6,457 nt of DNA from an uncultured Clostridia bacterium (lineage in GTDB: Bacteria; Bacillota; Clostridia; Oscillospirales; Ruminococcaceae). The position numbers were made by a program, and so were the translations under genes. Shown here in pieces: positions 1,406 to 6,457 of this stretch. The stretch lies in assembly GCA_937901805.1 (NCBI GenBank), contig CALDJI010000267.1, positions 1 through 6,457 of the forward strand, in the 5' to 3' direction. Every line of letters begins with the position of its first letter. Position 1 is the stretch's first letter. Under the pieces are notes generated by a model. The model was not told where the DNA came from. It was given only the letters and a program-made list of their open reading frames with translations, and ran no database searches.

Positions 1406-1445
1406 AAAAATGGAAAGTTCACCGATTTGTCATGTGAACTTTCCA
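1406..1445 (-). terminator. Intrinsic terminator downstream of cotJC
   Basis: A perfect 12-bp inverted repeat, TGGAAAGTTCAC (1411-1422) and GTGAACTTTCCA (1434-1445), encloses an 11-nt loop. On the minus strand it is followed directly by five T (1406-1410). It begins 8 bp past the cotJC stop codon, which fits a terminator of the cotJ operon. Confidence 0.88.
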
Positions 1446-1453
1446 AGAAAAGA

Positions 1454-1879
1454 TTATTTTCTTTTTACTTTTGGATCAAAGGACGGGTTAAAAGCATAGA
1501 AGTTTTTGGAGTCCAGGCGATCCTGAGTGAGCCGGAGCGCTTCACCGAAACGTTGAAAGTGAACAATTTCCCTTTCTCGTAAAAATTTGATGGGATCACG
1601 GACATCCGGGTCATCGACCAGGCGCAGGATATTATCGTAAGTGGAGCGGGCTTTTTGTTCTGCTGCAAGATCCTCGGTGAGATCTGTGATAACGTCGCCT
1701 TTTGATTGAAAATAGGCGGCAGTAAAGGGTACGCCTGCGGCAGAAGCAGGATAAAGTCCAGTGGTATGGTCAACAAAATAAGAATCAAAACCCTGTTTTT
1801 TGATTTCTTCAGGCGTTAAGTTTCGTGTTAATTGGTATACAATCGCACAAATCATCTCGACATGCGCCAACTCTTCGGT
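1454..1879 (-). pseudogene. cotJC: Spore coat manganese catalase (CotJC type), 3' fragment interrupted by an inserted element
   Basis: This is the C-terminal 141 residues of a manganese-containing catalase of the CotJC family, a spore-coat protein made in the mother cell. It matches the family through TEELAHVEMI at its start, AAEQKAR and REREIVHFQRFGE. Family metal ligands are visible: Glu and His in EELAH, the Glu of AAEQKAR, and a His 33 residues later in IVHFQRF. That spacing equals the Glu148-His181 spacing of the Lactobacillus plantarum enzyme. The N-terminal part, about 65 residues with the first Glu ligand, is absent. Upstream of the ACC codon (1877-1879) the frame runs through TGT, CTA and CAT into TAA (1889-1891), and 5 bp beyond that stop is the recombinase stop codon (1896-1898). 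A TTG at 1870 could be read as a start, but it corresponds to an internal family leucine. The fragment itself has no frameshift, which fits a recent or reversible insertion rather than decay. Confidence 0.9.
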
Positions 1880-1891
1880 ACATAGATGTTA
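1876..1891. other. Probable attachment-site junction (host cotJC / element end)
   Basis: Recognisable CotJC coding (Thr-Glu-Glu-Leu-Ala-His) ends at about 1879, and element sequence begins between 1880 and 1890. The exact crossover cannot be fixed without the empty site. If the native glycine codon before Thr is GGT, the bases GTACC could belong to either side. A small dyad ACAT-AG-ATGT (1880-1889) sits at the junction. Its meaning is unclear. Confidence 0.6.
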
Positions 1892-1895
1892 TCAG

Positions 1896-3467
1896 TTATT
1901 TGCGAAGTTTGGGATAAAGGACAAGTTTGAAATCATCCGGATCGCCGTGCCAGCGGGTACTGTGCTCTTTTGTGTAGATGGCTTTTTCCAAGACTTGCTT
2001 GAGCATTTTGTTTTTAGCTTCAGGGGAAGAAAGAGTATTATAAACATTCAGTAGAGCGTCAATTTTTGGAATAATTTCTTTCTGCATTGCCTGCTGTTCA
2101 TTTATAACACGGGATTGTCGCTCTATCGATTTTATAGTTTCCTGTACTTTTTTCAGCTTTACAGTAATGGCTTTGGAACGCTCTAGAAATTCTTGGACAG
2201 AGTACACCTCTTGTTCCAGCAAAGTATGGATTCTATCCGATTGTTTAAGCAGCTTTTCTTCTTCGCTGCGCAGTACTGGAAGAGGGCTTTTGGAATTATC
2301 AGAAATAGGTTCTTTAGTATTATTCTCTATATGGATACAGTATTCGTTGGCCCAGCTTTGCAATCCTGCAAGAAGTTTCCTTTCTACCCGCTCAATGGTT
2401 GAGCCGACATTGGTACAGGTCGGTTCCCGGCAAATCAGATAATCCGGGCTGTTGCCAGGGGAAGGACGCCGCACCATTTTTCTGCCGCATTTTCCACAAA
2501 TAATCAGCCCGGAAAGGGGGTTTTTTGTCTTCTTATCCCCCGGATTCGGATTGATACTGCGCCGCTGTTCGATGAATTTTTGCGCCTGTTCAAAAATTTC
2601 TGCGGACAAAATTGGCTCATGCAAGCCGTTTTCTAGGATATAGTCTTCATTACGGGGACGGTGGCGCACAATTATCCCGTTGTCCATGGATTTTTTCACT
2701 GCCCTGCGCCCCCATCGTACTTTGCCAATATAGGTTGGATTACACAGGATATCCCGGATGGTAGAAGCAGTCCAAACAGTGCCACTGCGTGGAGGAATCC
2801 CCATCTCGTTGAGACGGCGAGCAATTCTGTTACATCCCAGACGGTATAAGATACCGGAATCGTCCTGCACGCCGTTGGTATACCACTGATAGATGAGCTG
2901 TACAATCTTGGCCTCCTCCGGCTGGGGAGAAAGCGTATATCCTTTATCATGGGGAATTTTGACACGTTGATAGCCATAAGGGGCGCGGTTTCCTGCAAAT
3001 TTGCCTTCTTTGACGGAGGCTGCGCGCCCAGCCTGCAACCGGCGGTTGATGGTTTTGTATTCACGCCGGGACATAAACAGGCCAAACTCAAAATACTCTT
3101 CATCAAATTCGTTGTTTGGATCATAGATTTTTGTTGGCGTGATAATTTTTGTACCGGAAAATTTGAATGTCTGGGCGACAAGTCCTTGATCCATCGTATC
3201 CCCACGGGCAAGACGTTCGATTTCCATGACCAGCACGCCGGACCAGATGCCTTGCCCAACTTCGGCAAGCAGTTTTTGCATCTGTGGGCGCGCCGCAATG
3301 GTTTCTCCGGACACGACTTCCCGGTAGATATCCGTGATTGTGAGGTCGAGCCGCCCAGAGAGTTCCAGCAGGGCTTTTTCATGGCGGGCAAGGGTTTCTC
3401 CCTCTCCACGCTGTTCTGCCTCTTCATCGGCTCTGGATTTCCTGAGGTAGATGACATACTGCTCCAT
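1896..3467 (-). CDS. Large serine recombinase (site-specific integrase/excisionase)
   Basis: This 523-residue enzyme cuts and rejoins DNA at att sites through a serine-DNA intermediate. The N-terminal resolvase domain (about 1-150) has the catalytic serine at residue 11 in YLRKSRADEE and the active-site arginine pair R85 and R88 in ERLARGD, with R60 in the RPQMQKLL segment. A recombinase domain follows (about 160-300, containing NRAPYGYQRV and NPTYIGKVRWG). Then comes a zinc ribbon (C324, C327, C346, C351) and a C-terminal coiled-coil stretch (about 400-470). All landmarks and the length fit an intact enzyme. The ATG at 3467 has a near-perfect ribosome binding site GGGAGGAGGAA (3474-3484) 6 nt upstream. 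The stop codon lies about 17 bp from the cotJC remnant and the gene has the orientation of cotJC. It most likely integrated this element and could excise it, probably with a directionality factor. An 85-bp spacer with a hairpin separates it from the upstream gene. Confidence 0.95.
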   Translation of the reverse strand: MEQYVIYLRKSRADEEAEQRGEGETLARHEKALLELSGRLDLTITDIYREVVSGETIAARPQMQKLLAEVGQGIWSGVLVMEIERLARGDTMDQGLVAQTFKFSGTKIITPTKIYDPNNEFDEEYFEFGLFMSRREYKTINRRLQAGRAASVKEGKFAGNRAPYGYQRVKIPHDKGYTLSPQPEEAKIVQLIYQWYTNGVQDDSGILYRLGCNRIARRLNEMGIPPRSGTVWTASTIRDILCNPTYIGKVRWGRRAVKKSMDNGIIVRHRPRNEDYILENGLHEPILSAEIFEQAQKFIEQRRSINPNPGDKKTKNPLSGLIICGKCGRKMVRRPSPGNSPDYLICREPTCTNVGSTIERVERKLLAGLQSWANEYCIHIENNTKEPISDNSKSPLPVLRSEEEKLLKQSDRIHTLLEQEVYSVQEFLERSKAITVKLKKVQETIKSIERQSRVINEQQAMQKEIIPKIDALLNVYNTLSSPEAKNKMLKQVLEKAIYTKEHSTRWHGDPDDFKLVLYPKLRK

Positions 3468-3901: not shown

Positions 3902-5425
3902 TTATTCTTCGTCAGAATAATCGCTGTCATCCTCATAATCATAGCTGATGCTGTCAACAGGTTCATCGATTGACATACTTTGATGATACTGCTCTGCGGC
4001 CATTGTACGAACAAACTCTGCAGTTGGATCAAACTCTTGCACTAACTCTTCTAATTCATCTAATGTGACTTTGAAAAACTCTTTTCTCAGGTTGACCTTA
4101 TTAACCCGTTTTTCATTTAAGCGTTTATGTATAGTATTTTCCAAATCAACCGCATTGTTTGAAAAAATGAAGCTGTGGACGTCAAATGGGAATGGCACAC
4201 TGGCGCTGCCAAGTTCATCTACGCGCTCCTGCGGCTCAAGTCGGCGCGTCATTCCAATTTTGAAAACATCGTCCCCAAAAGAACCCAGATTACTAATGAC
4301 GTAAACATAACCGGCTTGACCGTTTTGCAGCCTCGTGATATCCTCTTTCTTTTTCTCTACTTCACCAAGCTGTAATTGCAGTTCTTGAATCCGAGCCTGT
4401 AATGCAGCAACTTTATCATCGTCAGTTGTTTTTGTGAGCTGGTCTTTTAAGCTGTTCATTTCTGCGTGATATTTACTTTCTTCTTTTTCAATTTTTTCAC
4501 GCTCTTGCAAAAGACGCTTTCTTTCTTCTGCTTCCTGACGCATTTGCTCTCGAATAGCACGCTGTTCTTCTTTGATCTGCTCCTTTTTCACATAATATTC
4601 ATATTCGATTTTTACGGCTTCTAAGAAATAATATTCAATTTCGCCTATGAACTTGGTCAAAGTTGAAGCGATAGTCTGATTCCCATCCATCGCAATTTTT
4701 AAATACTTTGCAGTGATCAGCTTAATATTTGAAAAGGCGTCTTCCAATTTTCCGTATTTCAAACTAAACAAAACATTCTGAAGTTCTGCTTTCAAGGCAA
4801 TTACCATTAAACGATAAATGGCAGCATTTGTCTTTGTAGTGTATCGGCTTTGATATTTTGCCAAGGTTTCTTCAATTTGTTTTGAATTTTGATTATATAA
4901 TTTGCGCAGCTGGCGGATGTCCATACTGTGGAGTTTTAAAACCACAGTTGGTTCCAGCAACTCGTCAAGGACGGCAATTGTTTTAGGTACTTCAAACCCC
5001 TGTTCCGACGCATCCATTGTTGAGTATGTATTCAGGGCATATTCCATGCTTCTGTAAACATTTTTGATTTTGGTTGAACGGGTGATGGTAGAATTCAGCG
5101 AGCGGTTCGCTTTCTCTATCTGCTTTTCTAATTCGGATGACTTGGTTCTTAAATCTGCAAGTTTTTGAGTGTCCAGATCTAGTTCAATCTGTTTTTGATC
5201 CCACAACATCTGGAGTTCTTGCTTCCCAGCACTTTGCGCGGAGATTTTGATATCCTCATAAAGCTTCTTTTGGTCAGAAAGAGTATTTTGCAGTTCTTTG
5301 ATTTCTGATTCCAGTTTGGATTTTTGATTTTCATAATAGGTAAGACTTTGACAATTTGGACAAAGACCCTGTGCATTTAAATGTAGAAAGAAACCTTTTC
5401 GACCGCATCTTTTACAGGTTTTCAT
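3902..5425 (-). CDS. Zinc-ribbon / coiled-coil protein with C-terminal T5orf172-type GIY-YIG domain
   Basis: This protein has 507 residues. The N-terminus is a small zinc ribbon with Cys4, Cys7, Cys22 and Cys25 as two CxxC pairs. A coiled coil follows (about 30-110), then a helical region (about 120-275) like the DUF4041 part often joined to this nuclease-like domain. A second, highly charged coiled coil covers about 280-365. The C-terminal domain (about 372-465) reads GYVYVISN, then FKIGMTRR, QERVDELGSAS, LENTIHKRL and RKEFF, the pattern of T5orf172/Mug113 GIY-YIG domains. Candidate catalytic residues are Tyr373 or Tyr375, Arg401 and Glu429. The tail is acidic (about 496-507). Members occur in phages and mobile elements, and nuclease activity is plausible but not established for this branch. 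The start at 5425 is chosen for AAAGGGGAA (5432-5440) 6 nt upstream and because the zinc ribbon begins there. An upstream in-frame codon at 5521 would add 32 residues inside the promoter/RNA region. Confidence 0.85.
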   Translation of the reverse strand: MKTCKRCGRKGFFLHLNAQGLCPNCQSLTYYENQKSKLESEIKELQNTLSDQKKLYEDIKISAQSAGKQELQMLWDQKQIELDLDTQKLADLRTKSSELEKQIEKANRSLNSTITRSTKIKNVYRSMEYALNTYSTMDASEQGFEVPKTIAVLDELLEPTVVLKLHSMDIRQLRKLYNQNSKQIEETLAKYQSRYTTKTNAAIYRLMVIALKAELQNVLFSLKYGKLEDAFSNIKLITAKYLKIAMDGNQTIASTLTKFIGEIEYYFLEAVKIEYEYYVKKEQIKEEQRAIREQMRQEAEERKRLLQEREKIEKEESKYHAEMNSLKDQLTKTTDDDKVAALQARIQELQLQLGEVEKKKEDITRLQNGQAGYVYVISNLGSFGDDVFKIGMTRRLEPQERVDELGSASVPFPFDVHSFIFSNNAVDLENTIHKRLNEKRVNKVNLRKEFFKVTLDELEELVQEFDPTAEFVRTMAAEQYHQSMSIDEPVDSISYDYEDDSDYSDEE

Positions 5426-5450
5426 ACAAAATTCCCCTTTTTTCGCAAAT

Positions 5451-5603: not shown

Positions 5604-5672
5604 ATGAATTGGAAAAATTTGTGTAATGATTATTTCAGGAATACTGATTAAAATCATGATGAGGTGATAGTG

Positions 5673-6347
5673 TTGATAACAAAATATGATGATGTACGGG
5701 ACTTAGTATGGGAAATCCAAAAAAAATATTGGATTAGTGAGTTGCCTGTTGATGTTTTTAAACTTTGCTCTTTTATGGGGCATACGGTAATGTCCTATCG
5801 GAAAGGGGCAGAGATCCTAAAGCTTTTGCGATTGGATGACCGTTGTGCAATTACTGATGGATTTACAACGGTCCTTGATGGGAGATTCCACATTTTTTAC
5901 AACGATAAATTATCTCGTAGACGTAACCGGTTTACAGTCGCACACGAGCTAGGACATATTTGTTGCGGCCACATCACTTTGTCAACAGGTGGCGTTACGG
6001 TAATCAACCGCGAAATCAATCCAGATATCCATGAGGATAATCCTTACGAACTTGCCGCAAATATTTTTGCATCGCGACTTTTAGCGCCCGCTTGTGTGCT
6101 GTGGGGACTGCACATTAGGGATGCAGACACAATATCAAGGATTTGCGACATAAGCATGCCGGCCGCGGAATCGAGAAAAAGGCGGATGGATACTCTCTAT
6201 AAGCGTGAGAAATATTGGCTTGAAACTAAAGGAAAGTCATGCTTTTTGCAATCCCCAGTAGAAAAGCTTATCTATGAAAGATTTGAAAACTATATGTACC
6301 ATGAAAGGTTTAATCTAGTTGATATATACCGCGATGAGGACGAGTAA
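5673..6347 (+). CDS. ImmA/IrrE family metallo-endopeptidase
   Basis: This is a zinc peptidase of the type that, in ICEBs1 and related elements, cleaves the element's own repressor to release excision and transfer genes. The zinc motif HELGH (residues 91-95 from the TTG start) lies in FTVAHELGHICCGH. The probable third ligand is Glu126 in NPYELAANIFASRLLAP, the usual family pattern. The protein has 224 residues and no N-terminal helix-turn-helix domain. No ATG exists near the N-terminus. The TTG at 5673 is chosen because GAGGTGAT (5661-5668), a full match to the 16S rRNA tail, ends just upstream at workable spacing. In-frame GTG codons at 5664 and 5670 lie in or too close to that site. No ImmR-like repressor gene is adjacent within the window, so its substrate is unknown. 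It diverges from the GIY-YIG gene. Confidence 0.88.
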   Translation: MITKYDDVRDLVWEIQKKYWISELPVDVFKLCSFMGHTVMSYRKGAEILKLLRLDDRCAITDGFTTVLDGRFHIFYNDKLSRRRNRFTVAHELGHICCGHITLSTGGVTVINREINPDIHEDNPYELAANIFASRLLAPACVLWGLHIRDADTISRICDISMPAAESRKRRMDTLYKREKYWLETKGKSCFLQSPVEKLIYERFENYMYHERFNLVDIYRDEDE

Positions 6348-6364: not shown

Positions 6365-6457
6365 TCTCTTCGCGATATTTGCGGGATAGCTTGATTGCCT
6401 TATCCATATCTTCTTTTGGAACCAGATGAGTTTCAATGCCTCTCCCGCGGGAAGCAA
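6354..6457 (-). CDS. Unidentified protein, C-terminal 33 residues, cut by the right edge
   Basis: On the minus strand a frame enters from the right edge and ends at TAA (6354-6356). Its residues read ASRGRGIETHLVPKEDMDKA and then a basic-to-acidic helical tail ending in REENED. The amino-acid composition looks like a real soluble protein. I do not recognise the family from so short a piece. It converges on the metallopeptidase gene, with 6 bp between the two stop codons. Confidence 0.5.
   Translation of the reverse strand, partial: ASRGRGIETHLVPKEDMDKAIKLSRKYREENED

Follow-up and report, generated by a model that had tools for sequence, protein, structure and literature searches.

A recombinase-bearing element in the spore-coat gene cotJC of Clostridia, probably excised in the sporulating mother cell

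In the window analysed here, a stretch of DNA of 6,457 nucleotides, the 3′ part of the spore-coat gene cotJC adjoins the gene for a large serine recombinase (LSR). We think it likely that this joint is one end of a mobile element lodged in cotJC, and we predict that the mother cell excises it during sporulation in the manner of skin and SPbeta. The window ends at position 6457, with one junction of the element visible in it; its features are listed in Table 1.

Table 1. Features at and around the cotJC joint of the window
Feature	Positions	Strand	Basis and remarks
Hairpin with T-run, predicted terminator	1412..1444	-	After the cotJC stop; read from the sequence
cotJC 3′ part (Mn-catalase spore-coat protein)	1454..1873	-	Inferred crossover to stop; PF05067, tblastn matches in relatives
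Inferred crossover dinucleotide GA	1872..1873	-	Second Glu codon of TEE/LAH; 14 nt from GATAAC
Attachment-site arm GATAAC	1888..1893	-	Adjoins LSR stop codon; same place in 26/38 distinct 3′ junctions
LSR, 523 aa, predicted integrase/excisionase	1896..3467	-	PF00239, PF07508, PF13408; phrog_95 integrase, 348 bits
Small protein, 98 aa	3553..3849	-	Upstream of LSR; no Pfam match; phrog_15901 at E 1.9e-5 only
T5orf172/MUG113-domain protein, phage-type cargo	3902..5431	-	PF13455, PF10544; phrog_1847, 332 bits
ImmA/IrrE-type metallopeptidase, phage-type cargo	5664..6347	+	PF06114; phrog_1914, 119 bits

Read along the minus strand from upstream to downstream, the window carries an edge with no assigned gene, the T5orf172/MUG113 protein, the 98-aa protein, the LSR, the cotJC 3′ part and the hairpin. 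The cotJC frame is open from 1885 down to the stop at 1454, the PF05067 match (109 bits) covers residues 2-122, and codons 66-186 are free of stops. The gene's own DNA starts at the inferred crossover, the few in-frame codons upstream belonging to the element arm. The LSR is complete, with Resolvase, Recombinase and Zn-ribbon domains at full length, as in the SprA/SpoIVCA type, and with its stop codon adjoining the arm it provides the intact site-specific recombinase that marks an intervening element. These results bear out the earlier note on this DNA, which had described a cotJC 3′ half abutting an intact LSR in the same orientation and followed by a terminator; the predicted hairpin is absent from the output of our hairpin scan, its 11-nt loop exceeding the scan's loop limit of 8. 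The 98-aa protein is a candidate directionality factor by position only. A search with the four proteins encoded in the 4.6 kb of the element that can be seen gave no phage structural or lysis proteins, only phage-type cargo, and no family reached its gathering score in an Rfam scan of the window. The other side of cotJC holds an AI-2E/YtvI-like transporter (3-566) and an unknown 106-aa ORF (890-1210), whose products had no match in 15 stretches flanking cotJC in relatives. A recombinase 99% identical to that of the window occurs in another source (P0001, with four member sequences and two contigs of at most 4,738 bases, the neighbouring genes lying outside view), and an exact 40-mer near the window's right end was absent from the viral contigs.

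The joint was compared across 148 LSR loci, comprising the window, 80 loci from genomes and 67 from viral contigs. The relatives of the window LSR among these loci are at most 66% identical to it in the best segment, and their cotJC part starts at the same codon as that of the window. In 66 of the 148 loci, window included, the LSR has a piece of cotJC no more than 1.8 kb away (the 3′ part in 46 and the 5′ part in 20), and at 57 of these 66 the distance is within 125 bases; of the remainder, 19 loci are cut off by the end of their contig and 63 are without a cotJC piece. GATAAC, allowing one mismatch at most, stands at a fixed place in 26 of 38 distinct 3′ junctions (drawn from 45 of the 46 rows, L007 falling outside the limits of the script) against 0.36 expected from shuffles, and GTTATC stands at the mirror place in 10 of 19 5′ junctions against 0.12 expected in shuffles, the twentieth (L010) having been left out as its match runs past the joint. 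The whole palindrome, GATAAC-N14-GA-N14-GTTATC, is uninterrupted in eight loci that show no cotJC piece (L086, L088, L090, L092, L099, L120, L134 and L145, L088, L090 and L120 being nearly identical copies), which is what one expects of a free attP, and the spacing between arm and crossover in the window agrees with this uninterrupted pattern. Judged by these counts, the LSR-cotJC joint of the window is not a product of chance. Because the crossover GA lies within a GAR (Glu) codon, either purine that follows gives Glu, and joining keeps both the frame and the residue. A complete attP palindrome (11865-11906) was also seen beside a cotJC 5′ part (11956-12156) in locus L062, perhaps reflecting a tandem insertion. 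A further palindrome match, in L031, is probably fortuitous.

Relatives supply the other half of the gene. A family search found PF05067 pieces in 47 of the 48 genomes or records behind the LSR loci. In the closest of those loci by cotJC (genome G001), one contig carries cotJA, cotJB, the 5′ part of cotJC, a 6.4-kb element with its LSR and the 3′ part of cotJC, and the two halves join in frame to give a 199-aa CotJC; both parts likewise share a contig in G298 and G242, for example. The 5′ half at the far end and the restored frame, for which the earlier note had proposed to look beyond the window, are both present in G001 and other relatives. The cotJA-cotJB-cotJC operon is seen in relatives; in the window, where the 5′ side is missing, cotJC is recognised by its PF05067 match. 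Five break points occur, near codons 33 (site A), 65 (site B, that of the window), 104 (C), 136 (D) and 177 (E), and at site E both sides are present on one contig in G224. Junction pairs were laid out for 18 cases, in which the rows of sites A, C and D are not all cleanly aligned; 13 of the pairs are at site B and ten of these are distinct, nine of the ten keeping the frame and the exception (G020) having a 5′ part with one extra base. The cargo of the 6.4-kb element of G001 (locus L178) seems to comprise a GGDEF/HD regulator and a peptide signal pair of the Agr type.

Split cotJC is under purifying selection like the intact copies. No stop or frameshift was found within the matched part of codons 66-186 in any of 57 split 3′ parts, in a test where seven rows end before codon 186, L255 is without one whole codon and inserted codons are uncounted; the 57 are the long-enough parts among 70 split copies, the other 13 being short, apparently through a second break or a contig end. 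None of 41 intact copies has a stop. In a codon model of 97 distinct sequences, with branch lengths fixed from a one-ratio fit, omega was 0.062 on split tips, 0.068 on intact tips and 0.082 on inner branches, and forcing omega = 1 on the split tips cost more than 1,900 lnL units. The clean cotJC frame had led the earlier note to suggest that the gene has not decayed, and this suggestion is upheld by the open 3′ parts and by selection as strong as on intact genes. On the tip leading to the window, omega = 1 was worse than 0.05 by 46 lnL units; part of this branch predates the insertion, and the low omega therefore cannot place the selection in the period since then. Broad pairwise comparisons, keeping dS between 0.02 and 1.2, gave median dN/dS values of 0.18 for 35 split pairs and 0.32 for four intact pairs, with values up to 0.51; many pairs were saturated or of unlike composition, and we therefore place weight on the tree model and on close pairs.

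The most telling comparisons are those in which the split is old. An orthologous 4.8-kb element, 87-94% identical, occupies site A in three species (G242, G306 and G347); its two large ORFs are the LSR and an 861-aa gene. In the three pairwise comparisons dS is 0.63, 0.66 and 0.26 for the LSR, 0.47, 0.45 and 0.18 for the cargo gene and 0.50, 0.52 and 0.20 for cotJC, and these like-sized values imply that all three diverged together; dN/dS is 0.05, 0.06 and 0.02 for cotJC and 0.10-0.13 for the LSR. Between G009 and G010 the site-A element is 91% identical across 8.4 kb and dN/dS of cotJC is 0.02, while the LSR at site B of these two genomes (dS 0.03) looks recently exchanged. In the composite cotJC sequences of this pair the 5′ side overruns the joint and shows a stop at codon 66; codons of this kind do not enter the counts. 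A gene that is never rejoined should not show such low dN/dS as is found in these two groups. The earlier note had left two readings side by side, a developmental switch and an element newly arrived at a site that tolerates it; in-frame joins, vertical inheritance in some lineages, strong purifying selection on split cotJC and the sigK halves beside related recombinases favour a switch like skin and SPbeta, a preference that applies to the class of relatives, since one junction can give neither the age nor the excision of the window's own element.

Within the family of G001, 51 of 59 genomes have a match, and both intact and split copies of cotJC occur. Cultured species with a split cotJC include Lachnotalea glycerini DSM 28816 (L072) and perhaps Clostridium methylpentosum DSM 5476 (L040). 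A sample of 245 genomes drawn across the class gave 157 with a match at E ≤ 1e-6; in this sample counts were made by eye from tables, and cotJC copies were found by similarity, which badly decayed ones would escape. The first classing, of 138 genomes among the matches listed, gave 85 intact (spanning codon 1 to at least 175, a definition by which a break at site E would count as intact) and 53 split. When these 53 except G001 were searched again (52 genomes), G296 and G157 came to look intact and G172 frameshifted, bringing the final tally among the 138 classified genomes, again among the matches listed, to 87 intact, one with a frameshift and 50 in pieces. Of these 50, 44 have one or more partner pieces, one (G257) lies at contig edges, and for five (G260, G262, G279, G320 and G324) the search found no partner; the partner pieces are doubtful in G261 (weak match) and G284 (opposite strand, stops). 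In G284 the pieces, at 225266 and 452989 on opposite strands of one 5.5-Mb contig (C1), are 227 kb apart, perhaps through inversion between att sites. Four genomes (G348, G158, G026 and G064) have an additional intact cotJC besides the split copy. In G172 (L274) the frameshift lies near site B and the element is absent, which may be a scar or an assembly error. The earlier note had held that an intact second copy with a frameshifted remnant, or halves failing to restore the frame, would speak against its proposal; most of the joints laid out at site B are in frame, the counter-examples being the extra base of G020 and the frameshift of G172 without an element.

Some genes are broken more than once. 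Nine genomes of the class sample have cotJC in three pieces (G242, G306, G347, G131, G270, G258, G182, G281 and G214), and two (G027 and G028) have it in four, on several contigs and with the order partly inferred. The single 4.07-Mb contig of G242 carries two elements, each with its own LSR, and since these are 23-26% identical to the query LSRs, distant lineages evidently target the same gene. The 44 same-contig intervals listed have a median of 8.15 kb and range from 2.6 to 157 kb, and 26 of them do not exceed 10 kb.

The window LSR has YokA/SprA of SPbeta as its best solved relative (E 1e-51, residues 6-500 aligned). In the tree, the window LSR clusters with the set found beside asparagine synthase (SH-aLRT 96), which implies that targets change within the LSR family. 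The 63 loci without a cotJC piece comprise eight beside part of an asparagine synthase gene (L013, L026, L029, L033, L034, L037, L008 and L098), nine beside a LysM-GH18 gene, four beside a sigK half, the eight with an uninterrupted attP and 34 others; L013/L098 and L080/L122 are copies of each other. The sigK loci, all in viral contigs, were recognised by family models (L119, L140 and L144) or by similarity only (L138), and appear to be skin-like elements; sigK is the textbook example of excision timed to sporulation. Halves of the LysM-GH18 gene flank the LSR in L046 (11597-12451 and 1894-2316) and L076 (8510-9379 and 14277-14717). The asparagine synthase beside window-like LSRs is a possible further split gene. 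We presume that asparagine synthase and LysM-GH18 are mother-cell genes, as are asnO and yaaH of B. subtilis. We give about even chances to a broader proposal, in which the splitting of cotJC in Clostridia is programmed. In approximately one-third of the sampled cotJC-bearing species the germline copy would consist of two to four pieces, elements with distantly related LSRs having broken it at as many as five conserved codons, and each mother cell would restore the gene through up to three separate excisions. LSRs of this group would have converged on genes used by a mother cell that is bound to die, namely cotJC, sigK, asparagine synthase and a LysM-GH18 gene of coat or germination.

The mechanism that we propose for the window's element places the 5′ half of cotJC past 6457. 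The LSR, probably with a directionality factor, would excise the element in the mother cell, the rebuilt cotJC would then be expressed from the cotJ operon, and the forespore copy would remain split. cotJC appears among the sigma-E-controlled coat genes in the portion of PMC3416734 available to us. Upstream of the LSRs, a sigma-E promoter pattern was found in 5 of 144 loci against 1.9 expected, which is no clear signal, and a sigma-K-like pattern in 15 of 144 against 3.8 expected, a weak one. That the scan does not decide the timing is unsurprising: as far as the available text of PMC5025042 describes, C. difficile makes its recombinase constitutively, and the directionality factor alone is mother-cell-specific. 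SPbeta sets a precedent for the proposed outcome, its excision during sporulation rebuilding spsM (PMC4191935, in the part available).

Excision in the mother cell has to be weighed against an ordinary temperate phage or mobile element that uses cotJC as a convenient att site, inactivates a dispensable gene and leaves only upon phage induction. The phage-type cargo of the window (T5orf172 and ImmA), the uninterrupted attP forms in viral contigs, intervals reaching 157 kb and the second, intact cotJC kept by some genomes are all in keeping with such an element, as is the account, in the accessible portion of PMC12122855, that B. subtilis mutants without this coat protein have no apparent defects. 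We nevertheless consider it unlikely, because selection on split copies is no weaker than on intact ones, also where three species share an ancestral element, because small elements persist (26 of the 44 listed intervals at 10 kb or below) and because sigK is targeted by related LSRs. Mother-cell excision might instead be real but serve the element only, the dying cell offering a harmless port and the timing of cotJC gaining nothing. This is a sub-reading of our preferred explanation, so that its probability is not to be added to that of the latter, and we hold it to be a serious possibility on the lower side of even: sporulation genes recur as targets and several distant LSR lineages use cotJC, but intervals of only 2.6-4.8 kb suggest that the host has kept them, and sequence does not distinguish this reading from one with a regulatory benefit.

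Two further readings concern the pieces themselves, and both strike us as highly improbable. A single junction on a short stretch could suggest that the cotJC part is decaying or that the assembly has made a chimera of it, but its arm and spacing match those of relatives, it has no stop and the 99% identical recombinase is present in another source; the chimera and pseudogene readings were accordingly rejected on the strength of the open frames, the selection seen in the codon model and the attachment arms. The retained open frames would equally suit pieces that are translated separately and function together as a split protein, a reading that sits poorly with pieces of down to approximately 33 codons (site A) and with five different break points. 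Excision that rebuilds cotJC in the mother cell remains our preferred explanation.

Sporulation-timed gene rebuilding has so far been treated as a handful of cases with one element each. If cotJC is commonly in pieces, many clostridia would rearrange the mother-cell genome as a matter of course, and CotJC may have been listed as absent or truncated by gene finders. The junctions also offer many natural attB/attP pairs with a defined putative crossover. In the literature searched, which covered main texts, largely of open-access papers, no paper among those listed describes cotJC as a gene that carries an intervening element, and neither 'catalase' nor 'spore' occurs in the body of PMC10083194, a large survey of LSRs. 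The known sporulation targets named in the available portions of PMC10747680, PMC4191935 and PMC5595907 are sigK, spsM, spoVFB, spoVR, gerE and yabG.

Like the cotJC elements, skin in sigK (with SpoIVCA in B. subtilis and CD1231/CD1234 in C. difficile) is an LSR element inside a mother-cell sporulation gene that is rebuilt on excision, whereas the target here is a coat enzyme, not a sigma factor, and excision is predicted. SPbeta in spsM, with SprA and SprB, is likewise a phage-type element in a spore-envelope gene, and SprA is the best solved relative of the LSR, but the gene is another one and no SprB-like factor was identified in the window. The phi027 prophage of C. difficile R20291 adjoins a CotJC-like gene; it is described as adjacent, not as a sporulation-timed rearrangement, in the available parts of PMC11222575 and PMC12122855. 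Intervening elements in sporulation genes also include gin (gerE), vfbin (spoVFB), vrin (spoVR) and yin (yabG), and gin, which has also been placed in a laboratory strain of B. subtilis, illustrates that they need not be phages (PMC5595907, in the part available). As far as the accessible text goes, those are cases of one element per gene, whereas several LSR lineages target cotJC, at five positions in all, and the gene may lie in three or four pieces. In this respect cotJC resembles the heterocyst genes of cyanobacteria (nifD and others), in another phylum and another cell type, where several interruption elements may likewise occupy one developmental gene, nifD of Rivularia carrying four according to the available portion of PMC4874684.
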